Under the pieces are notes generated by a model. The model was not told the DNA's origin. It ran no database searches and saw only the letters and a list, made by a program, of their open reading frames with translations. 20,947 nucleotides of DNA from a virus: IMG/VR virus record IMGVR_UViG_3300021092_000249, positions 1-20,947 of that record, one strand, 5' to 3'. A program made the translations under genes and the position numbers. Shown here one piece after another: positions 646 through 14,917 of this stretch. How positions within the stretch are numbered: position 1 is the first letter of the stretch; every line of letters starts with the position of its first letter.

Positions 646-3600
646 TTATTTATTTTTCAAGTCATCAACTTCTTCTTTTAGTTCTTTTATTGCCTCTACA
701 AGTAAAGCAACAAAGTTTTGGTATGCAACTGATTTAGGATCATCACCAAATACTAGTTCAGGAATAATCTTTTCAACTTCTTGAGCAATAAAACCGATAG
801 AATGTTTTCCAGTTTCCTTATAGTCAAATTCAACACCTCTGAGTTGTAAAACTTTATCTAAAGCATTTTGTATTGTTTGAATATTAGTTTTAATACTCTC
901 ATCAGAACTTGCTGTGATTGTACCACCACAAACTAAATTGGTTCCATTAAATGTTAAGTTAGCAGAACCAGCAGCATTATTAGAAGTATCTTTAAAAACA
1001 ACTTGGTTTGCTGATCCAGCAACAGGACCTGTAGCACCTTGAGCACCTTGAGCACCATTAGCACCTTGAGCACCTTGAGCACCTTGAGCACCTTGAGCAC
1101 CATTAGCACCTTGAGCACCTTGAGGTCCTCTTGCACCCTGTGCTCCTTGTGCTCCTTGTGCTCCTTGTGCTCCTTGTGCTCCTTGTGCTCCTTGTGCTCC
1201 TTGTGCTCCTTTTGCTCCTTGAGGTCCACCACCTTGAGCACCTTGAGGTCCAACAAACCCTTGAGGTCCTCTTGCACCTTGAGCACCTTGGGCACCTGGA
1301 ACTGTACTATCATTTCCTGTAGCACCTTGTGCTCCTGTAGGACCTTGAGGTCCAGGAGCACCTTGAGGTCCTATTGTTCCAGTTCCTTGAGGTCCAACAA
1401 ATCCTTGAGGACCTCTTGGACCTTGTGCTCCTTGAGATCCTTGAGGTCCACCACCTTGAGCACCTTGAGCACCTTGAGCACCTTGAGGTCCAATAGCACC
1501 TTGAGCACCTTGTGGTCCTGCAACTGTACTTGCTTCACCTTGTGGTCCAGTAGCACCTTGTGGTCCTTTTGCTCCTTGAGAACCTTGTGCTCCTTGAGCA
1601 CCTTGAGCACCTTGAGCACCTTGAGCACCTTGAGGTCCTGAACCTTGAGCACCTTGAGGACCTCGTGCACCTTGAGGTCCTGTTGCACCTTGAGGTCCTG
1701 TTGCACCTTGATCTCCTTGAGCACCAACAGCACCTTGAGGTCCTTGAGAACCACCAGCACCTTGAGCACCTTGAGCACCTTGAGCACCTTGAGCACCTTG
1801 AGCACCTTGAGGTCCTGTTGCACCCTGAGCACCTTGAGGTCCTGCTGCACCTTGTGGTCCTTGTGGTCCAATAGGACCTACAATTTTTCCAACATCATCC
1901 CAATCAGTTCCATTATATACCCAAAGATTACCAGTATCTTGAGCAATAACGCCATCTCCAATAGATGCTGGATACCAAGGAAATCCAGTATCATTAGCAG
2001 TTAATGTAGTATTTGGCGCAGAAGTAGTTACTGATGTTACAGAACCAACAATATCAATTGAACTTCCTGTTGGACCCTGAGGACCTATTCTTCCTTGTGG
2101 TCCTTGGAATCCTTGAGGTCCTGTTGCACCCTGAGAACCTTGAGGTCCACCACCTTGAGCACCTTGAGCACCCTGTGCTCCTGTAGCACCTTGAGCACCT
2201 TGTGCTCCTTGAGGTCCTTGAGGTCCTGAACCTTGAGCACCTTGAGCACCTTGAGGTCCAATAGCACCTTGAGCACCTTGAGGACCTTGAGGACCAGTAC
2301 CACCTGTGTTACCAGCAGCACCTTGAGCACCTTGAGCACCTTGAGCACCTTGAGCACCAACAGCACCTTGAGGTCCTTGAGAACCACCAGCACCTTGAGC
2401 ACCTTGAGCACCTTGAGCACCTTGAGCACCCTGAGCACCTTGAGCTCCTTGGGCACCTTGAGCTCCCTGTACACCTTGAGGTCCAACAAATCCTTGAGGA
2501 CCCTGAGGACCTCTTTGACCTTGTGCACCTTGAGAACCCTGAGCACCCTGTGCTCCTGTATTACCTTGAGCACCCTGTGCTCCTTGAGCACCCTGTGCTC
2601 CTTGAGCACCCTGTTCTCCTTGAGCACCTTGAGGTCCTGAACCTTGAGCACCTTGAGGTCCAACAAATCCTTGAGGTCCTGGTGCTCCTTGAGCACCTTG
2701 AGCACCTTGAGGACCTTGAGGACCTCGTGCACCTTGATGTCCTTGAGCACCCTGTGATCCTTGTGCTCCTTGAGGACCTGATCCTTGTGCTCCTTGAGGT
2801 CCAACAAATCCTTGAGGACCTGTTGCACCTTGAGATCCTTGAGAACCTTGTGCACCTTGTGCACCTTGAGGTCCTCTTACACCTTGAGGTCCTTGAGCAC
2901 CCTGTGCACCTTGTGGTCCTAAAGGTCCTTGAAAACCTTGTGCACCTGTAACTCCAGGATTTCCTTGAGGTCCTATTCTTCCTTGTGCTCCTTGTGGTCC
3001 AACAAATCCTTGAGGTCCTAGTGCTCCTTGTGCACCCTGAGGACCAACACCTTGAGCACCTTGTGGTCCAATAGCACCTTGTTCTCCTTGAGCACCTTGA
3101 GGTCCAGTAGCTCCTTGTGCTCCTTGAGCACCTTGAGGTCCAATATCTCCTTTTGCACCTTGAGGTCCAATAGCACCTTGAGATCCTTGAGGACCTAAAA
3201 TACCTTGTGGTCCTGCAACTGTACTTGCTGCACCTTGAGGTCCTACTGCCCCCTGTGAACCTTGTGGACCAACAGGTCCTATAATCTTACCTACATTATT
3301 CCAAACAGATCCATCATAAACCCACAAGTTGCCTGTTGCTTGATCAATAACACCATCTCCTGCTACTGCAGATGGAAAGGCAGTATTAAGAATCGTTTGT
3401 GGATTATTAGGTGGATTTACATTAACATCTGGAACAGATCCAATAATAGTAACTGATGTTCCTGCTGCACCTTGTGCACCTTGAGGTCCAACAAATCCTT
3501 GAGGACCACTTACACCTTGGGCACCCTGTGCACCTTGAGGTCCTCTTACACCTTGAGCACCTTCAACACCTTGAGCACCTTCAGCACCTTGAGCACCTTC

Positions 3601-4404
3601 AGCACCTTGAGCACCTTCAGCACCTTGAGCACCTTGAGGTCCTTGAGCACCTTGTGCTCCTTGAGGTCCTTGAGGTCCTTGAGCACCTTGTGCACCTTGA
3701 GGTCCAATAGCACCTTGTGCACCTTGAGGTCCAATAGCACCTTGTGCACCTGTAAGACCAGCAGGATCTTTCCAAGTAAATCCCAATCCAGGTCCTAAAG
3801 ATGCTAATACTTGTTCATATGATCCTGATAAACCATCTTTATTAATAATGTCGCCAGTTAATCTAACCCCAGCAACATTAATGTCTATTGGATAATTTGG
3901 TTGAGTATTTGCAATACCAATATTTCCAGATCCTGGTAAATATACCAGTTGATTTGGAGCAACATCTAACTTATTTAACGTTCCTCCAGATCTTTGGCTT
4001 GTAAAACCAATATATCTTATTTCATTATCTGTTGGTTCTTCTACAGGAATATCTAAAACTGTGATAGTTGCAATACCAATTCCTGGTGCAACATAGCCAG
4101 TTGCTACTATTCTACTCCCTACAAAATTTAATTTAGTTATAGAACCTGCAGTACCAACTAAAGTTCCTTCGTCAAAAACAGTTATACCTAATTCTAAAAC
4201 TCCAGGAGGAATTGGTGTCCAATATCTCTTTGCATCACCACCAATTCCAATGAGCATGTACTGCTCTCCAATTGGAATTGAAGGTTCATTTAATGGATCT
4301 CCTAAATTAGGCTCAGCCTGATTTAACCCCAGGAATTGATACCTATCTGAAGTTAATCTTGATAATGGAGTATTAGTAACTCTTCTACTTAGGTATCTTG
4401 CCAT
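646..4404 (-). CDS. collagen-like tail fibre with C-terminal peptidase S74 chaperone domain, 1252 aa
   Basis: This is a probable trimeric receptor-binding or side fibre. Residues 1-215 are a non-repetitive beta-rich head. Residues about 216-315, 375-777 and 846-1125 are Gly-X-Y triplets dominated by GAQ and GPQ (QGAQGPQG), which should form a collagen-like triple helix. Two homologous inserts of about 60-70 residues break the helix (residues about 315-374 and 777-845). Both carry GDGVIxQxTGNLWVY and end VGKIxGPxGPQG. A linker follows, then an S74 intramolecular chaperone (about 1166-1252) with SDESIK, giving the Ser1167/Lys1172 dyad spaced as in endosialidase autoproteases, then [14 protein letters not shown] and a C-terminal coiled coil. 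Family knowledge says this domain drives trimerisation and is then cleaved off. The gene has its own late-promoter core and the 18-nt shared leader. Host receptor unknown. Confidence 0.9.
647..654 (-). promoter_or_regulatory. putative T4-type late promoter (AATAAATA)
   Basis: On the minus strand AATAAATA matches the T4 late consensus TATAAATA at 7 of 8 bases. It overlaps the last codons of the collagen-fibre gene and lies 19 bases before the ATG of the 108-aa gene, leaving room for a short leader with the AAAGGA ribosome site. The assignment rests on the motif and on the same core recurring before other genes in the window. Confidence 0.5.
1141..1221 (-). repeat. near-perfect 9-bp microsatellite within the collagen gene
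   Basis: The plus strand carries seven perfect TGCTCCTTG units (1141-1203), then TGCTCCTTT, then TGCTCCTTG. On the coding strand this gives CAAGGAGCA units encoding a (Gly-Ala-Gln)n run with one Lys where the unit differs. Neighbouring collagen repeats use other codons for the same residues, so this patch looks like a recent slippage expansion. Confidence 0.9.
1715..1797 (-). repeat. 83-bp direct repeat, copy 1
   Basis: This is identical base for base to 2348-2430, 633 bp away. It encodes the distinctive collagen stretch containing [16 protein letters not shown]. The identity includes codon choice, so it indicates a recent internal duplication or gene conversion. Confidence 0.85.
2348..2430 (-). 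repeat. 83-bp direct repeat, copy 2
   Basis: Second copy of the 1715-1797 repeat in the same gene and orientation. The match ends at 2431 (C here, T at 1798). At its left end the preceding base also differs (A here, T in copy 1). Confidence 0.85.
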
Positions 4405-4408
4405 AATT

Positions 4409-4426
4409 GGGTTCCACTATCCCCCT
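4409..4426 (-). promoter_or_regulatory. shared 18-nt leader element of the collagen-fibre gene
   Basis: AGGGGGATAGTGGAACCC on the minus strand is identical to 8567-8550. It starts 9 bases after the ATAAATA core and ends 4 bases before the ATG, so it should lie near the 5' end of the mRNA. It has no strong hairpin (GGG/CCC only), and its G-run is further from the start than a normal Shine-Dalgarno. Function unknown. Confidence 0.7.
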
Positions 4427-4435
4427 TAATAAGTA

Positions 4436-4443
4436 TATTTATT
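4436..4443 (-). promoter_or_regulatory. putative T4-type late promoter (AATAAATA)
   Basis: The minus-strand AATAAATA overlaps the TAA stop of the 127-aa gene and lies 31 bases upstream of the collagen-fibre ATG. It has the same order, core then 18-nt leader then ATG, as the region before the 1237-aa gene, which supports a real promoter. Confidence 0.6.
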
Positions 4444-4825
4444 ATTGATTAAGTGTCTCTAAAACAGAAACAGTATATTTCATATGATTTGGATCGGTTG
4501 ATGAAATACCTGATATTTTTATTCTGTCTGTTTTAGTAGCTGTTTTTTCCAAAACTAATTTTCCATCTAATAAAACCAATGCATCATTTGGTGGAACTTG
4601 AACATTATAAATCAATTCTGTAGTAGTTGTAGTAATACCACCATTAGATGCTCTAACATCTCTTTCATGATAAAAACTTACAGTCCCAATTCCTGTGCCA
4701 GTATTGGCAACTTGTGCATAAAGAACTACAGTTGTATATCCAGTTCTGGTAGTATAAATTCCAGAATTTGATGCTGGTATAATTCCAGTGAAGGTTTTGT
4801 ATTGGTTTAATGGTAATTGAGCCAT
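4442..4825 (-). CDS. small beta-rich virion protein, 127 aa
   Basis: The 127-residue protein begins MAQLPLNQYKTFTGIIPASN, continues with GIYTTRTGYTTVVLYAQVAN and ELIYNVQVPPNDALVLLDGK, and ends KYTVSVLETL. This layout (short N-terminus, 'GIYTxxxGYTxVVLxAQVxN', 'vPxxDAxxLLxGKLVLE', C-terminal 'SVLETL') looks like a small single beta-sandwich protein often found next to fibre genes in T4-like marine phages. The function is not known to me. It starts 9 bases after the stop of the 1237-aa gene with no convincing Shine-Dalgarno (TAACAATCAATC before ATG), so it is probably translated by coupling and co-transcribed with that gene. Likely a small fibre or neck decoration; that role is inference. Confidence 0.75.
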   Translation of the reverse strand: MAQLPLNQYKTFTGIIPASNSGIYTTRTGYTTVVLYAQVANTGTGIGTVSFYHERDVRASNGGITTTTTELIYNVQVPPNDALVLLDGKLVLEKTATKTDRIKISGISSTDPNHMKYTVSVLETLNQ

Positions 4826-4834
4826 GATTGATTG

Positions 4835-7800
4835 TTATTGAAGAGCAAGAATTAAAGGTGTAACCTCTGCTTGTAAGCTTTTACTAAATGCTTGTCCACT
4901 AATGGTTCCAGTATTTTGATTAATAGTAATTCCTTCGCTAATTCTAAAGTTTCCTCCCTGATCAGTGCTTGTAAATGGAACTTTACCTCCATTTGTAGCA
5001 ACTATCTGATTATCAAGAACTGGAACTGCACCCTTTGATGGAATAGCATTAGTTATTGTAACTCCTGTTCCTATATATTCAAAAGTAATAGAACTTGCAA
5101 TAATCTTACTGGATTGGAAGAAATAAACAGTTGTTCCAACACTTACTGGATAAGTAATGAACTCATCAAAAGTAACTGTTGTAGTCCCACCAGCAGAAAC
5201 TTGTGTTGCAGCAGTTGGATTAAAGAATAACTTTTCCATTACAGCAGTTGCTGTTGCAGTTGTTCCAACTCCAGGCCCAATAACTGGAGGAGGAGCTATA
5301 GTTACAGTAGGTGGAGTTTCTGTATATCCAGTACCAGAAACAAGCAAACTTACACTTCCTATAGTTCCATCAGAATTAATATCTGTTTCAAAAACTGCTG
5401 CTTCTCCTGGGATGAACAAATCTGGATCAGAAGGAAGTTGAATTGTAACTTCTACAGGAATGTTTGGATCATAACCAAATCCAGGATTACTAATTTCAAT
5501 TCTGTTAATGAAGTAATATTGAGTTCCTATGACTGCAATCTGACCATCATAAGGTCTTTGTCCTTCTGGAAGAATTAGTGCAGGAACTTCTCCTGTTCCC
5601 AATCCAACAATACTTGTTATAATTCCTGCTCTATTAGTAATGACTGGTTGAACAAGTGCTGAATAGGTTTTAGATGCATTCTTTGTCTGTGCTACCGAAC
5701 CAATACCAGTTTGATAACTTTCGAGAAGATTTAAATTTTGTGCAACATATGTTGCAATTCCAGCAATATAATTAATTATTGCCACCTCTCCATCTTTTAC
5801 ATATCCAGCAGTAAATCCTGTTGGTGGTGGAGATGTTTCATTAAGATAAGTCAGAGAACCATCTGCAGAATCTCTATATGCTAATCCAGCATTTATTGAG
5901 TTTTCATTACCAAGAGTAAGAATATCAGAACAAATAGATTCTACAATAATTTGACCATCTCTGATGCACTTTGAACGTCCTACTACAGAACCACCATAAT
6001 CAAAAGATGGACCATATGCACCATAAGGACCATCAGTGCTAGTCAAGAATCCTACAGCTTCAGTAGCAATAAACTTCTTATTAACTCTAAGTAAATCAAC
6101 AGTATCTTTGAATTCTTGAGAAGCACCAACACCAACATTAATTGTTAATGTAGATACATTTTCTTCTGTTGGTTCAGTTGTGACAGTTCCAGTATATTGA
6201 AGTGGGGTTGCACCATTAGAAACAAGTCCAAAATTACCAAAAGAAGAGTTAGAGTTGTTGAGGTCACAAACGCTACCAGTATCACAGAAAACTCCAATAT
6301 CACAGCAAATAGTAAAGAGTGAAACTAACTGAGCATATCCAAAGTTTGTAATAGAAACACCAATACCACCTTGATTGTATTGAGTGTAGGCATCCAGAAC
6401 CATGGATTTAAATCCACCAGCTCTGCTGCCATCAACTCTCATTCCAATACTATCAGGAACAAAGTTTGTACAGTTCTGAACGTAAGGTGATTGCCAATCT
6501 TCTTCTGTGCCATTAGCATATCCATTCCCTTTAGTAGGGAATGAGACCATTGCATTAGGATTAGTTGGACCTACAAAAGATTGTTGTGAAACATAGCAAC
6601 CTTTTCTTACATGATACAAATCAGTTTTATCTTTTGTGGTTACAAGTGTTCTTCTTAAATCTTCTCCAACAACTGCAACTCTTTCTGGAACTTGAATAGG
6701 ACCATCTTCTACATACAGTCCAGCATATACTCTGACAGTATCTCCAGGTTCTGCTATTGAACATGCTTTTTTAATGGTTAAGAATGCATCTCCAGGACCT
6801 GTTCCACCATTAGAATCACTACCAAGTTTATTAACAAACCACTCATTTCCAATTCTTGCTCCTGGTGGTTGCCAAGTTAATTTACCAGCAGGATAATTAA
6901 TGTTTGGTGCTGCTTCTGGACCACTATCGATAATAGTAGTAACAATTCCTGTGCAAGTATAAATTGCAGAAACTACATTCGCACATCCATTTGGATTGAC
7001 ATTTGAATCTCCATCAGCAATAATTTCAATATCAATAAGTTGAGTGACACTTGAACCTACTGCTTGATATGAACCTGGAACTGGGGCATTATTGATTACA
7101 TATCTTGCTAAAGTAGCAATACTGGAAATTCCAACAATAGTTGCTAATTTTACATAACCCTCAGAAAATCCTGATGGAAGTGGTGAACTATCATCCAGGT
7201 GTTGTAATACAACTCCATTATAGTAAGATAAACCTGCTCCTACTGTTTGTGAGTTTCCACCTCTAGAAATATCAAATGCAATAGCATCAATAATCAGTCC
7301 AATATCACGCTTACACTTAGTTGGTCCAGTAGTTATGCCTGCAGAACCATAATCAAAATTAGGACCATCAGCACCAAATGGACCAGAAGTAGAAGTAATA
7401 AATCCTACAATTTCATTTGCTATAAATTGCTTATTTCTGGTCAGAAGATTAGCAGCATCAATAAATCTTTCAGAAACTCCAAGTGCCTGAGATCCAAGAA
7501 CTGAATAGGCATATCCTACATTATTATTAGCATCTAAGACCTCACCTCTTATTCTTACATCACCAGCAACATCTAAGGTTCTTGTTGGTGATGTTGTATT
7601 AATTCCAACAATAGGTTGAATAGTCTTTAAAAGTTGATTTTCATTAGAAGTTACTGAAGTAACTCCAAGATTTTTAAATGTTGCAAGAGTTCCACCAATA
7701 CCAACATTAAGTAATGCTGTTGTGGTTATTCCTGTTACAAAAAGATCTTTAATTGTTGAAATGCCAACAATCTCATTCTCAATAATAGCAAGGTCAACTG

Positions 7801-8548
7801 TAGATATTCCTACTCTTTCATTAGTAATAGAAGCAATTCCTATAGTGGAGATGCCAACAATCTCATTCTCAATAATAGCAAGGTCAACTGTAGATATTCC
7901 TACTCTTTCATTAGTAATAGAAGCAATTCCTATAGTGGAGATGCCAACAATCTCATTCTCAATAATAGCAAGGTCAACTGTAGATATTCCTACTCTTTCA
8001 TTAGAAATAGAAGCAATCCCTATGGTTGCAATACCAGTATAGGATTGAGTAATTGTGGCAAAACCAGTAACTCTTAAATCACCTATAATATCAACATCAT
8101 ATGCTGGAGATAAAGTATTGATACCTAATCTACCAGTGCTTGTTATTGCTACATTTCTTTTATTTGACCTTGCTACAAATTGAAAATCTTCTTGAGGACT
8201 AAGTGTGTTTATGCCAACAGAACCAATACCAGTTACAACAACTGGAGAACCATATTTTGAATTGACTTGGAACGCTTGTTCTGGACGTGTTGTTCCTACG
8301 CCAACACTATCAGAAAATATACCTGTCCCTCTTACATCTAACCTTTCTAATGGACTTATTGTACCAACTCCAACCCTATTATCTGCAAGAACATTTGTCT
8401 CTGCTCTTATTGTTCCAGCAACATCTAATGGGTATTGTGCTGTGGTCTTACCAATAGATACTTCTCCATCTGCAACACTTGCATAAAGAGTATCTGTCCC
8501 TACACTTAAGCCAGTTTTGACTTTAAAAAAGATATCTTGTGAAGGCAT
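4835..8548 (-). CDS. giant tail-fibre/virion protein with GIGT repeats, 30-aa tandem repeats and beta-helix, 1237 aa
   Basis: This is a multi-domain virion protein. Residues about 25-150 hold repeats of the form VGIGTxxPxxxLDVxG, a shaft motif known from phage fibres. Residues about 174-263 are three 30-aa tandem repeats (AIIENEIVGIST, then GIASITNERVGISTVDL). Two homologous modules of about 180 residues (about 363-549 and 815-986) share N-K-x-FIAxExVGFxTST, GPxFDYG, CxRD and SGF/TGF-x-x-GYVK. Between them, about 560-786 is a pectin-lyase-like beta-helix beginning NEWFVNKLGSDSNGGTGPGDA, with GDTVRVYAGLYVEDG and NNSNSSFGNFG. Near 1020-1090 are PGxGY-type repeats. No catalytic triad is evident. 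A late-promoter core and the 18-nt leader precede the ATG. It probably encodes a long fibre or baseplate-attached adhesin, but its place in the virion is uncertain. Confidence 0.85.
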   Translation of the reverse strand: MPSQDIFFKVKTGLSVGTDTLYASVADGEVSIGKTTAQYPLDVAGTIRAETNVLADNRVGVGTISPLERLDVRGTGIFSDSVGVGTTRPEQAFQVNSKYGSPVVVTGIGSVGINTLSPQEDFQFVARSNKRNVAITSTGRLGINTLSPAYDVDIIGDLRVTGFATITQSYTGIATIGIASISNERVGISTVDLAIIENEIVGISTIGIASITNERVGISTVDLAIIENEIVGISTIGIASITNERVGISTVDLAIIENEIVGISTIKDLFVTGITTTALLNVGIGGTLATFKNLGVTSVTSNENQLLKTIQPIVGINTTSPTRTLDVAGDVRIRGEVLDANNNVGYAYSVLGSQALGVSERFIDAANLLTRNKQFIANEIVGFITSTSGPFGADGPNFDYGSAGITTGPTKCKRDIGLIIDAIAFDISRGGNSQTVGAGLSYYNGVVLQHLDDSSPLPSGFSEGYVKLATIVGISSIATLARYVINNAPVPGSYQAVGSSVTQLIDIEIIADGDSNVNPNGCANVVSAIYTCTGIVTTIIDSGPEAAPNINYPAGKLTWQPPGARIGNEWFVNKLGSDSNGGTGPGDAFLTIKKACSIAEPGDTVRVYAGLYVEDGPIQVPERVAVVGEDLRRTLVTTKDKTDLYHVRKGCYVSQQSFVGPTNPNAMVSFPTKGNGYANGTEEDWQSPYVQNCTNFVPDSIGMRVDGSRAGGFKSMVLDAYTQYNQGGIGVSITNFGYAQLVSLFTICCDIGVFCDTGSVCDLNNSNSSFGNFGLVSNGATPLQYTGTVTTEPTEENVSTLTINVGVGASQEFKDTVDLLRVNKKFIATEAVGFLTSTDGPYGAYGPSFDYGGSVVGRSKCIRDGQIIVESICSDILTLGNENSINAGLAYRDSADGSLTYLNETSPPPTGFTAGYVKDGEVAIINYIAGIATYVAQNLNLLESYQTGIGSVAQTKNASKTYSALVQPVITNRAGIITSIVGLGTGEVPALILPEGQRPYDGQIAVIGTQYYFINRIEISNPGFGYDPNIPVEVTIQLPSDPDLFIPGEAAVFETDINSDGTIGSVSLLVSGTGYTETPPTVTIAPPPVIGPGVGTTATATAVMEKLFFNPTAATQVSAGGTTTVTFDEFITYPVSVGTTVYFFQSSKIIASSITFEYIGTGVTITNAIPSKGAVPVLDNQIVATNGGKVPFTSTDQGGNFRISEGITINQNTGTISGQAFSKSLQAEVTPLILALQ
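7761..8030 (-). repeat. three tandem 90-bp repeats in the 1237-aa gene
   Basis: Units are 7761-7850, 7851-7940 and 7941-8030. The first two are identical across all 90 bases. The third differs only at a few bases near its right end (ttagaaatag, then ccctatggttgca). Each unit encodes 30 residues of predicted shaft with AIIENEIVGIST and NERVGISTVDL, keeping the frame. Confidence 0.95.
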
Positions 8549-8549
8549 C

Positions 8550-8567
8550 GGGTTCCACTATCCCCCT
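8550..8567 (-). promoter_or_regulatory. shared 18-nt leader element of the 1237-aa gene
   Basis: Identical to the element at 4426-4409 (AGGGGGATAGTGGAACCC). It lies 11 bases after the late-promoter core and ends one base before the ATG. The flanking bases are not conserved between the two leaders, so the element itself appears to be selected or recently copied. Confidence 0.7.
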
Positions 8568-8578
8568 GTTTATAAGAT

Positions 8579-8586
8579 TATTTATG
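8579..8586 (-). promoter_or_regulatory. putative T4-type late promoter (CATAAATA)
   Basis: The minus-strand CATAAATA matches TATAAATA at 7 of 8 bases. It sits in the 42-base gap between the 1761-aa stop and the 1237-aa start, 30 bases before the ATG. It is the only candidate signal in the gap besides the 18-nt element. Confidence 0.6.
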
Positions 8587-11500: not shown

Positions 11501-13876
11501 ATCTCCACCAGAAGTCAAACTGATTGTATTGGGTTGAGAATAAATGCTACTTAATGAAGAAGATGATTTTTGAATAATAAATCCAGAAGTTGGATCTGAT
11601 GCATTAGGAGATTCTTTAGGAATTACTAATCTTGCTCTGTAGACTTTATCATCGTTTGTCCTCAAATCAATCTTTCTCTTGATAAAGAATCCAGGATCAT
11701 TTTGACCATACAAACTATCAACAAATGCACTATTTGAAACAATATTCAAGTACCAATTTTTTTCTGTGAAATCAAATTGGAAAGGACTACCTTCTGTTCC
11801 TGGAAGACAATCAGATACTCTAAAGACTAACTTTAAATTATCTTCTACATCAATTCCAATATCATTCTTGATATCAAGGTCAGTTTTACTGGAAAGACTT
11901 TCCCTTAATTTTATAGTTGTTGGCGTCAAAGAGTTTGGAGAAACATAATAAATTTTATTACTTTCAAATCCATCTGGAAGAACTGCATTATTTGCAATTA
12001 CTCTTACTGCTCGTCCAGTAGATATTCCTGATAATGTTCCTTCTACTGTAATAATATCGCTGGCAATACTATCAATATTATAAGATGTTTCATGATTTGG
12101 GTTGATAGTTGCTGAACCAGAATAAGTTGGATAGTAGATTGCATCACTACTTCTTGCACCAATAGTATATCCTCTTACTTTCTGATTTGGAGGAGTAAAT
12201 TGATCAGTATATCCTCTCAAATATATTCTTGTTGGGTCATTAGTGGTTGTTGTTAATCCAGCATTAATTGAATAGCAGTTGATATTGCTTTCAGTGTCAC
12301 TAATATCTTTTGGTGGAATGATATGACTTACAAATCCATGATCATCTTTTGGTAACTGATATTCTTTATACCCTTGAGAATGTAATGCAATAGCACCGAA
12401 ATTACTGTTAGAGTTTGTGATGCTTTGTTCACCACCAGATTCTGCTACAAACTGTTTTGCATATCCAATAGCAAAAATAGAAACACACTGGATAATTGAA
12501 TCATTAGATGCCTTAATGTGGAAAGTTTCCCAATCTGGGTTGTAGACTGCATTAGAATTTTGATGTAATGATGTGGTTGTTCCCAGATCATTTTGATCCA
12601 AATATGTTCCAGTATCTGCATTATATTTGACAAATGCCCTATCATCACGTTGCAGAGAAATTCCAGTAAATTGGGCAGTAACCATGCTTTTGAATCCAGT
12701 TGCTTTTGATCCATCTGCATAGAGACCATTCATTCCATAAACAGATTTCAAACTGCAGTTGAATACATATGGCGAAGAACCAGAGACTGTATCTGATTGT
12801 ATTTTTACAGTTGCTCCCTCAAAACTTGGATCTGCAGCTCCTGGTGCAGATTGAATTAAATATGTAAATTGCGTTGGACTAATAACTTGTGATACTACAA
12901 AATTACCATTAAATTGCTGTTGAACTTGAACACTGTTGCTTGATGCAACACCAGAAATTTGAACTGGTGTCAGAGGAGATAATCCATGAGATTGTTCAGT
13001 GGTGACAGTGATTGTTGTGGTTGCAGTAGAACCATCACCAGATATTACATCAGAAATAGTTAAAGTTCCTTGTCCAAGATCTCCAACAATTTTATTTTCT
13101 TCTGGATTCTTTTGTAAGTCAGTTAATGTATTTGGAATTGCACGACCAGAGAAGTTTCCATACCCATAACTAACTTTAAGATAATAATTATCAAGGTCAG
13201 TTAATGTTGACCCATCTATAATATTTTTACCATCTGCATATTCAAATGCAGTTAGTTTATGGTGAGAATATGTAGGATTGACAGTTGTTGTGGTATAAGT
13301 GTTGTATACGCCACCAACAGGATTACCATCAAAAATAGTAAATCCAAAAATATAAGAAGAACCAGTTAATCTGAAAATGGCAGATTTTGCAATATTATCA
13401 TTTGCAGGATCTGGAACAAACTTTGGTCTTATTTTTGTTTTTCTTAAATCTGCAGCTACAATAGACGTTCCTTTTGGAATTATAACGCCGCCTTCAACAC
13501 TATTATAAAGATAAAGAACATTATTTGGACTTTCCAAATCAAAGTTTGATGCAACACTCAATTCAGTAATTGATACTGTGCTGTTATTAACATCTTTGAA
13601 AACTGAACCAGTAAAATAATGTCCAGGTCTGTTATCAATATAGTGCGTTCCTGGAGAAATTAAGATTGTCGTCTGGTCAAATAAGTCGTTATTTTCCCCA
13701 GCAACATAAGAAAATCTTGCTGCCTCAAGCAGAGCTCTTTGAATTGTCTTAAATGGTCTAGTTCTTGAATTACCCTTGTTTTCAATAGAATCTGTTGAAT
13801 CTATTTCATTTGGATCAACATAAAGAGTATTACCATTAATATTTTTAAGAAAATTTTCTAATCTCGCTAAAGGCAT
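8591..13876 (-). CDS. giant tail-fibre/virion protein with beta-helix and C-terminal jelly-roll-like domain, 1761 aa
   Basis: The largest protein of the window. Its N-terminus (NTLYVDPNEIDSTDS, then TRPFKTIQRALLEAARFS and ILISPGTHYI, residues about 17-80) is the usual start of a pectin-lyase-like right-handed beta-helix. The helix continues to about residue 500 with GFKSMV near 395 and NSNSNFGAIALHSQG near 494. These motifs are shared with the 1237-aa protein. The middle holds beta-rich modules, including PGSGY repeats near 1110. Residues about 1510-1592 have a 'YVSGISTFVG...YVTGVSTFVGVSTF' shaft. The last 145 residues (from IAQIVEASWNT, with LEATITPTKSDSKIFIIAQV) look like the beta-sandwich tip common in marine phage fibres ('DTGLTATITPSSTSSKILV'). 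AAGGAT lies upstream of the ATG as ribosome site. Probable adhesin or long-fibre component; no enzyme motif seen. Confidence 0.85.
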   Translation of the reverse strand: MPLARLENFLKNINGNTLYVDPNEIDSTDSIENKGNSRTRPFKTIQRALLEAARFSYVAGENNDLFDQTTILISPGTHYIDNRPGHYFTGSVFKDVNNSTVSITELSVASNFDLESPNNVLYLYNSVEGGVIIPKGTSIVAADLRKTKIRPKFVPDPANDNIAKSAIFRLTGSSYIFGFTIFDGNPVGGVYNTYTTTTVNPTYSHHKLTAFEYADGKNIIDGSTLTDLDNYYLKVSYGYGNFSGRAIPNTLTDLQKNPEENKIVGDLGQGTLTISDVISGDGSTATTTITVTTEQSHGLSPLTPVQISGVASSNSVQVQQQFNGNFVVSQVISPTQFTYLIQSAPGAADPSFEGATVKIQSDTVSGSSPYVFNCSLKSVYGMNGLYADGSKATGFKSMVTAQFTGISLQRDDRAFVKYNADTGTYLDQNDLGTTTSLHQNSNAVYNPDWETFHIKASNDSIIQCVSIFAIGYAKQFVAESGGEQSITNSNSNFGAIALHSQGYKEYQLPKDDHGFVSHIIPPKDISDTESNINCYSINAGLTTTTNDPTRIYLRGYTDQFTPPNQKVRGYTIGARSSDAIYYPTYSGSATINPNHETSYNIDSIASDIITVEGTLSGISTGRAVRVIANNAVLPDGFESNKIYYVSPNSLTPTTIKLRESLSSKTDLDIKNDIGIDVEDNLKLVFRVSDCLPGTEGSPFQFDFTEKNWYLNIVSNSAFVDSLYGQNDPGFFIKRKIDLRTNDDKVYRARLVIPKESPNASDPTSGFIIQKSSSSLSSIYSQPNTISLTSGGDNSIEIVRNTNVIVDAWITTSGVTTTANIICKTPHKLKVGNKVNIYNLKSTNEPAPVGLGTGTGFNGSFEVSEVVSDLQFRFTIDRNPGGITPTASSAVASWLNVRDCASSSYRIPPYTIDTSNRGDLPYFTCESLNSEFQVYKVKTIQKYSQDDSDGIYHLYLNSFKNTPTVSPFNVEKYRLSQNLDNLYPQLDVDNAVSDVESTISYASRKIIGKVEVNDPKYSTTKETIIQYLKDFGDGLEVSSISKAGSTCTVTTTLNHNINSIRQLTVTSAGSGFVDGTYYDIPLCTSTGSGSGATANITVFDGEVTSAIIAHPGSGYNSTDNVTVKGIPGSTNAVVLTVSAVFPENFGCVQVFGSVYPENNGIFKITSATANTISYTNASGKAEASSIAVVIPNIPAYGVSAVGVYDSESNTSQVTTTTAHPFLVGNKVLFEGVSQPYTVVEKTSITVFKVSGNVPLVDLGDGDVGTPPTVHSAGLTSQVRDTNATNENIGTRQFALVDGFKGRIVSTGGLSSTETTFIARLANTDTNSGFRLNKGDFLQIDDEIIIVDSVSGSTISCTRGVLGTKPDSHSTNSAFRRILVQPVELRRNSILRASGHTFEYTGFGPGNYSTGMPTNQDRILSNDEVLISQALPTQGGLVVYTGMNSNGEFFIGRKKYDATTGEEIDVVPVPEEEVTFFDKLTINSLTVNNSIDASTAVSQFGPIYAGITTVNQLTILGPNDSPGDLYVSGISTFVGFATFRNSINVAGLTSTTNLYVTGVSTFVGVSTFESDVYVNGNLTPTIIVDKDGQVGAADSVLTSTGSQLNWKNINDLPFVGKIAQIVEASWNTMTLHTDSWSTTNLEATITPTKSDSKIFIIAQVPWATGQHSTNNDTSGSMRILKNESPILQYPEESFLVGANSGSNEAGMVASLIYFDSAVGTTSPVTYKVEAIATAATFTKYFWTTSNANKTLDSISQIYLVEIT

Positions 13877-14700: not shown

Positions 14701-14770
14701 AAACCCTGAGAGCAATTTTTACCTGGAATTTTTTCGAGGAGATTTTTGGAATTAAAAGTCAATTTTGAAA

Positions 14771-14843
14771 TAGGAGTGGTGGGATTCGAACCCACCCTGG
14801 ATAGATTTTAAGTCTACTGCCTCTTCCGCTGGGCTACACTCCC
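14771..14843 (-). tRNA. tRNA-Leu (anticodon UAA), short variable loop
   Basis: 73 bases on the minus strand fold as a cloverleaf. The acceptor stem is GGGAGTG/CACTCCT with one G-U pair. The D-arm is GCC/GGC. The anticodon stem is GTAGA/TCTAT around loop CTTAAAA, with T33 and anticodon TAA at 14810-14808. The T-arm is GTGGG-TTCGAAT-CCCAC and the discriminator is A. The loop CTTAAAA is typical of tRNA-Leu(UAA). The variable loop is only five bases (CCAGG), whereas bacterial tRNA-Leu normally has a long class II arm, so charging identity is less certain than the anticodon. CCA is not encoded. A phage tRNA reading UUA would suit AT-rich late genes. A strong sigma70-type promoter lies about 75 bases upstream. 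Confidence 0.9.
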
Positions 14844-14917
14844 ATGGTGAGGACTTACACAGCCTCAGGATTTCTCCTTCACAGGCACGATGCCTCAACG
14901 CACTTCCTTCACACCAA

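Follow-up and report, generated by a model that had tools for sequence, protein, structure and literature searches.

A putative RNA hairpin with a near-invariant loop and a variable stem in the leaders of late fibre genes of T4-like aquatic phages

Two kinds of leader hairpin have been described in T4, the operator of gene 43 and the block of the gene e type (PMC3014915). The gene 43 translational operator of T4 and RB69 is bound by the DNA polymerase gp43; its loop is UAAC, and it serves one gene per phage, mostly on early mRNA, with a known protein as its reader (PMC3014915). The inhibitory leaders of the late T4 genes e, soc, and 49 have RNA structure where translation starts; a conserved loop is not part of their description, and late transcripts of gene e lack the 5′ arm and escape the block (PMC3014915). 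Cyanophages also carry the manA, wcaG, and PhotoRC-II RNA motifs (Rfam RF01745, RF01761, and RF01717), which are structured leader RNAs found comparatively in marine metagenomes and T4-like cyanophages (PMC2864571).

The element analysed here is a predicted hairpin that precedes phage fibre genes. It shares with the gene 43 operator a short hairpin format, a conserved loop, a place near the ribosome-binding site of a T4-type leader, and stems that differ between phages, whereas its loop is GGANAGUGAA, it stands before several late fibre genes, and its reader is putative. In loop and gene it does not match an operator of the gp43 type: the loop reads GGANAGUG(G)AA rather than UAAC, the genes that follow encode fibres rather than gene 43, and T4 itself has no match to the covariance model of the family. 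As in the gene e, soc, and 49 leaders, the structure lies at the translation start of late genes, but it falls wholly downstream of the late-promoter core and has a conserved loop. It likewise resembles manA, wcaG, and PhotoRC-II in its mode of discovery and its setting, although these are other RNAs tied to metabolic or photosynthesis genes. A GGAG near the ATG recalls a canonical Shine-Dalgarno (SD) site; unlike such a site, it belongs to the loop of a hairpin that covaries, at a distance of about 11 nt from the ATG, and is flanked by a conserved AGUGAA. Rfam searches returned only a tRNA at the gathering score and nothing relevant at E≤1, and the hairpin matched no Rfam family in them. A literature search, carried out mostly without subscription papers, found no earlier description of it.

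The window, i.e., the whole stretch of 20,947 nucleotides that was analysed, is probably from a cyanophage-like phage of the T4 type, because its neighbouring tail protein matches mostly cyanophages (best match S-SRM01, 37.5% identity). It contains exactly two copies of the 18-mer AGGGGGATAGTGGAACCC, one before each of two fibre genes (Table 1). No third copy occurs in the window even with up to three mismatches, and shuffled sequences yield zero. ATAAATA cores lie 9 and 11 nt upstream of the copies before fibre B and fibre A, respectively, and the start codons 4 nt (fibre B, 4404) and 1 nt (fibre A, 8548) downstream; the flanks are otherwise dissimilar. The first-pass annotation, which had reported an identical 18-nt element with unlike flanks before two fibre genes, agrees with these data in both copies, their coordinates, and their spacings to core and ATG. 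The fold of copy 1 has an energy of −4.0 kcal/mol with the GGG/CCC stem as the minimum free energy structure, and the single-sequence optimum of copy 2 is a fold other than this hairpin. A similar gene order, with a large fibre-type gene, a small gene, and the next structural gene, recurs in cultured cyanophages. The fibre B gene has a long region of collagen-like GXY repeats broken by short non-collagen stretches (1020-3760), and the fibre A gene has about three near-identical 90-bp tandem repeats (7761-8023). A tRNA-Leu gene (anticodon TAA) is encoded on the minus strand at 14770-14844, inside the tail gene region.

Table 1. Coordinates of the leader elements, promoter cores, and genes in the window
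Feature	Position	Strand	Remarks
Leader element copy 1 (fibre B)	4409..4426	-	predicted stem GGG 4425-4423 with CCC 4411-4409, loop GGATAGTGGAA 4422-4412
Leader element copy 2 (fibre A)	8550..8567	-	predicted stem GGG 8566-8564 with CCC 8552-8550, loop GGATAGTGGAA 8563-8553
Late-promoter core ATAAATA, fibre B	4436..4442	-	overlaps stop codon of the upstream 127-aa gene
Late-promoter core ATAAATA, fibre A	8579..8585	-	
Fibre B gene	646..4404	-	1252 aa; collagen-like repeats and C-terminal Peptidase_S74 chaperone domain
Fibre A gene	4835..8548	-	1237 aa; PHROG 17885 tail fiber
127-aa gene between fibre A and fibre B	4442..4825	-	without leader element

A scan of 2.9 million viral contigs in IMG/VR recovered the exact 18-mer in 44 further stretches. 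With the window included, there are 51 occurrences in 38 distinct flanking contexts, every one with ATAAATA just upstream and an ATG 1, 2, or 4 nt downstream. The sequence NATAAATA is the published late promoter of cyanophages (PMC2984593), and this T4-type late promoter stands upstream of the 18-mer in 51/51 occurrences. Downstream genes are relatives of either fibre A (M(A/P/S)S(Q/K)...) or fibre B (MA(K/R)Y(L/I)S(R/K)R...). Additional copies before structural genes, which had been proposed as a check at first pass, were therefore found in numbers, all of them between promoter and ATG and before fibre genes. With as many as three mismatches allowed, fifteen larger records of up to 181 kb (the contigs of 143, 155, and 181 kb among them) each yield one or two copies. 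Distant fibre B relatives whose start immediately follows another gene have neither promoter nor element; in the fibre A relatives L276 and L277 the element is absent and an ordinary SD-like GGAG is present.

The exact 18-mer was discarded as the unit because the loop persists in relatives whose stem has changed; the element of the first-pass annotation is real, but its fixed 18-mer gives way to a hairpin with a variable stem. Looser scans, one of which held loop and promoter constant and left the stem free, retrieved the same loop first in GGGGGA(G/T/A)AGTGAACCC leaders and then in quite different stems, such as CGTT-GGAGAGTGAA-AACG, GAGG-GGATAGTGAA-CCTC, and CTTCTGT-GGAAAGTGAA-ACAGAGG. The family is thus a leader hairpin with the loop GGANAGUG(G)AA, which is near invariant, and a stem of about 3 to 8 bp with compensatory substitutions; the 11-nt form of the loop, GGANAGUGGAA, is that of the window. 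The covariation count was restricted to 10-nt loops because MAFFT, run on 10- and 11-nt loops together, pushed the gap to the alignment end. Among 105 distinct leaders with a 10-nt loop, stem positions 1 to 3 were paired in 97, 99, and 97% of cases, versus 56, 83, and 59% after shuffling. In a reduced set of 48 distinct sequences, the four-pair stem was paired in 92.7% of cells versus 56.3% in shuffled controls (0/500 reached the observed value), and the covariation score was 0.852, against 0.193 after shuffling and no more than 0.231 in slid controls; these shuffle values, as well as the Fisher values, ignore the relatedness of the sequences. Two-sided changes occurred at all four pairs. The predicted stem of this putative cis-acting leader RNA therefore carries compensatory changes throughout the 10-nt-loop family. 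Pairs 1 to 3 of the same 48 sequences had 10 G-U and 2 A-C combinations (p=0.019), a wobble bias that is as expected for an RNA of the mRNA strand.

The stems are only marginally stable, at about −3 to −8 kcal/mol, and single-sequence folding energies alone do not reveal the hairpin. The 11-nt-loop set, the branch of the window, displays little covariation when taken alone. The window copies belong to this branch, with a GGAU loop and a stem of three G-C pairs, and the hairpin predicted there rests on its relatives. Bacterial genomes were scanned as a control for this combination of loop, promoter, and ATGGC: 45/81 matches had a stem of 0 bp and 10 had at least 3 bp, 5 of these 10 preceding phage-type fibre genes; the control matches are mostly chance.

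Complete phages and large contigs were searched with the covariance model at a threshold of E≤0.01. One match per phage was obtained in S-SM2, Bellamy, S-B05, P-TIM68, S-SCSM1, SynMITS9220M01, S-SRM01, and DSL-LC03, and further matches in the single-cell virus AG-345-O18 and in contigs; wherever the downstream gene was read, it was of the fibre type. Three copies lie in contig G016 and four in contig G039, in each case within a few kilobases, before unlike fibre genes and each with its own promoter core; G019 has four matches to the model. No match at this threshold was found in T4, HTVC008M, S-PM2, Syn9, P-SSM2, ACG-2014j, S-CAM9, S-SKS1, S-PRM1, Syn19, or S-SCSM2R. Searches of cultured phages with blastn and two leader queries of ~100 nt gave no convincing leader match, and protein searches of cultured phages with other fibre N-termini (MATDHNF and MANDKKF types) gave none. 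In DSL-LC03 (L726 near 2352-2375; OR003938 55351-55374), the fibre-type gene is annotated with a TTG start codon that falls within the 3′ arm of the hairpin.

Spacing separates the start codon from the promoter as the reference point of the element. In leaders without another SD, the distance from loop end to ATG has a median of 5 nt (interquartile range [IQR], 5 to 5), versus a median of 16 (IQR, 14 to 19) from promoter to loop; the 5′ arm mostly starts about 8 to 19 nt downstream of the promoter core, and this speaks against a block of the gene e type, in which the late transcription start would fall inside the hairpin. The element is thus positioned with respect to the start codon, an arrangement that suggests a link to translation. 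A separate SD occurred in 0/57 leaders with a GGAG loop versus 16/34 with other 10-nt loops (Fisher p=8e-9, relatedness ignored), so that the loop seems able to act as an SD. The G-run had been judged at first pass to be too far from the ATG for a usual ribosome site; the GGA(G), displayed by the loop, may nonetheless contribute to ribosome binding. The loops of the window itself read GGAU, and an SD role is weaker there. Leaders with a separate downstream SD (S-SCSM1, P-TIM68, and L241) retain the stem as well as AGUGAA, one half of the loop, and the hairpin thus probably has a role beyond that of an SD. Collectively, the data make an RNA element that is linked to translation and lies at the ribosome-binding site the probable reading. 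The earlier suggestion that fibre genes share an element for translation or RNA stability is supported by the covarying stem, the mRNA-strand wobbles, and the constant start-codon spacing, the last of which favours translation over stability.

Our preferred reading, to which we assign a probability of about 0.7, is that late fibre mRNAs have in their short 5′ leader a cis-acting RNA hairpin, of which the 18-mer represents one form, and that this hairpin would control or time translation initiation and offer its loop to a trans-acting factor. The hairpin lies downstream of the late-promoter core and upstream of the start codon, abutting or overlapping the ribosome-binding site of tail-fibre genes, and its SD-like GGAG might become usable by the 30S subunit once the weak stem opens. 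The whole loop may be recognized by a phage or host protein or by the ribosome itself, and such a factor could couple the fibre genes of one phage into one post-transcriptional group. That a trans-acting reader of the loop exists is a real possibility, if well short of even odds. Sites of the regulator CsrA have GGA in a loop, usually preceded by A; CsrA binding was set aside, as the fibre loop lacks this A.

The main rival, which we consider somewhat unlikely, dispenses with the trans-acting factor: a plain structured ribosome-binding site whose loop exposes the SD-like GGAG at a set distance from the ATG and keeps it open in an A/T-rich leader. The exclusion of a separate SD from leaders with GGAG loops, its frequent presence beside other loops, and the nearly constant distance between loop and ATG are what such a site predicts, and GGAG-A-GUGA resembles what we take to be the extended complement of the anti-SD, GGAGGUGA, plus one extra A. 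However, stem and AGUGAA persist in the three leaders with a downstream SD, and complete phage genomes have the hairpin only before fibre-type genes and not before other late genes. A 5′-terminal stabilizer shielding late fibre mRNAs from RNase E is a distinctly less probable explanation. The start of the stem would indeed lie near the expected 5′ end, but it is the distance to the promoter that varies more and the distance to the ATG that is nearly constant, and a stabilizer requires no conserved loop sequence.

Explanations at the level of DNA are weaker still. A late-promoter extension, or a site of recombination that shuffles fibre genes, could account for the invariable position behind a late-promoter core, for the exchangeability of fibre genes, and for copies that are often identical within a genome; compensatory stem changes with different sequences are nevertheless ill suited to homologous recombination, the wobble pairs favour the mRNA strand, and the promoter-like ATAAATA upstream of the window gene starting at 13876 has no element, making this reading very improbable. 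Duplication by chance or recent copying of the 18-mer within one phage would fit the identity of the two window copies. It is refuted by the 38 distinct contexts, nearly all in other phages and with diverged flanks and coding sequences, and zero copies are expected by chance.

Which host is open to a phage is decided by its fibres, and the sources searched describe no RNA element that sets fibre amounts in T4-like aquatic phages. Judged from sequence comparison, the hairpin points to an undescribed control switch for these host-gripping proteins in many T4-like cyanobacterial and related aquatic phages. Being short, widespread, covarying, and confined in these data to the leaders of fibre-type genes, it offers a direct handle for probing, for mutation, and as bait for a partner, and it marks fibre genes in metagenomes regardless of their coding sequence.

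An element-independent sample was assembled by searching for the fibre N-terminus KNFVVKNG, which gave 50 distinct leaders, one of them cut off. A TAAATA promoter core was present in 49/49 full leaders. The first-type loop was carried by 42 of the 49, among them 37 with exactly GGAGAGTGAA, two ending in AT, and one of the 11-nt form; the other seven had an alternative hairpin, AGGTWGGCGYTCTCCWCCT, directly before the ATG of the same fibre gene family (consensus AGGUWGGCGYUCUCCWCCU). The first-type model found no strong match in nine second-type contigs and the cultured phage B23 (lowest E, 0.028, at a site that does not precede a fibre gene), and no intact second-type hairpin was found in twelve first-type records, which suggests that the two types are mutually exclusive, many of the compared records being fragments. 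We tentatively entertain a dedicated phage or host RNA-binding protein that would read the GGANAGUGAA loop and determine how much of every fibre of a phage is made, or when; the alternative hairpin would then represent a second specificity of this control, and such a post-transcriptional fibre regulon would move with the fibre genes. The alternative hairpin was seen in L491, L505, L507, L533, L546, L549, L553, L555, L558, and B23 (L302), and its CUCUCC is the reverse complement of GGAGAG in the first type. A possible third leader type, GGTANATACC, lies shortly before the fibre genes of P-SSM2 (L263 near 7462), S-SRM01 (L262 near 7467), and S-CAM9 (L266 near 7468).
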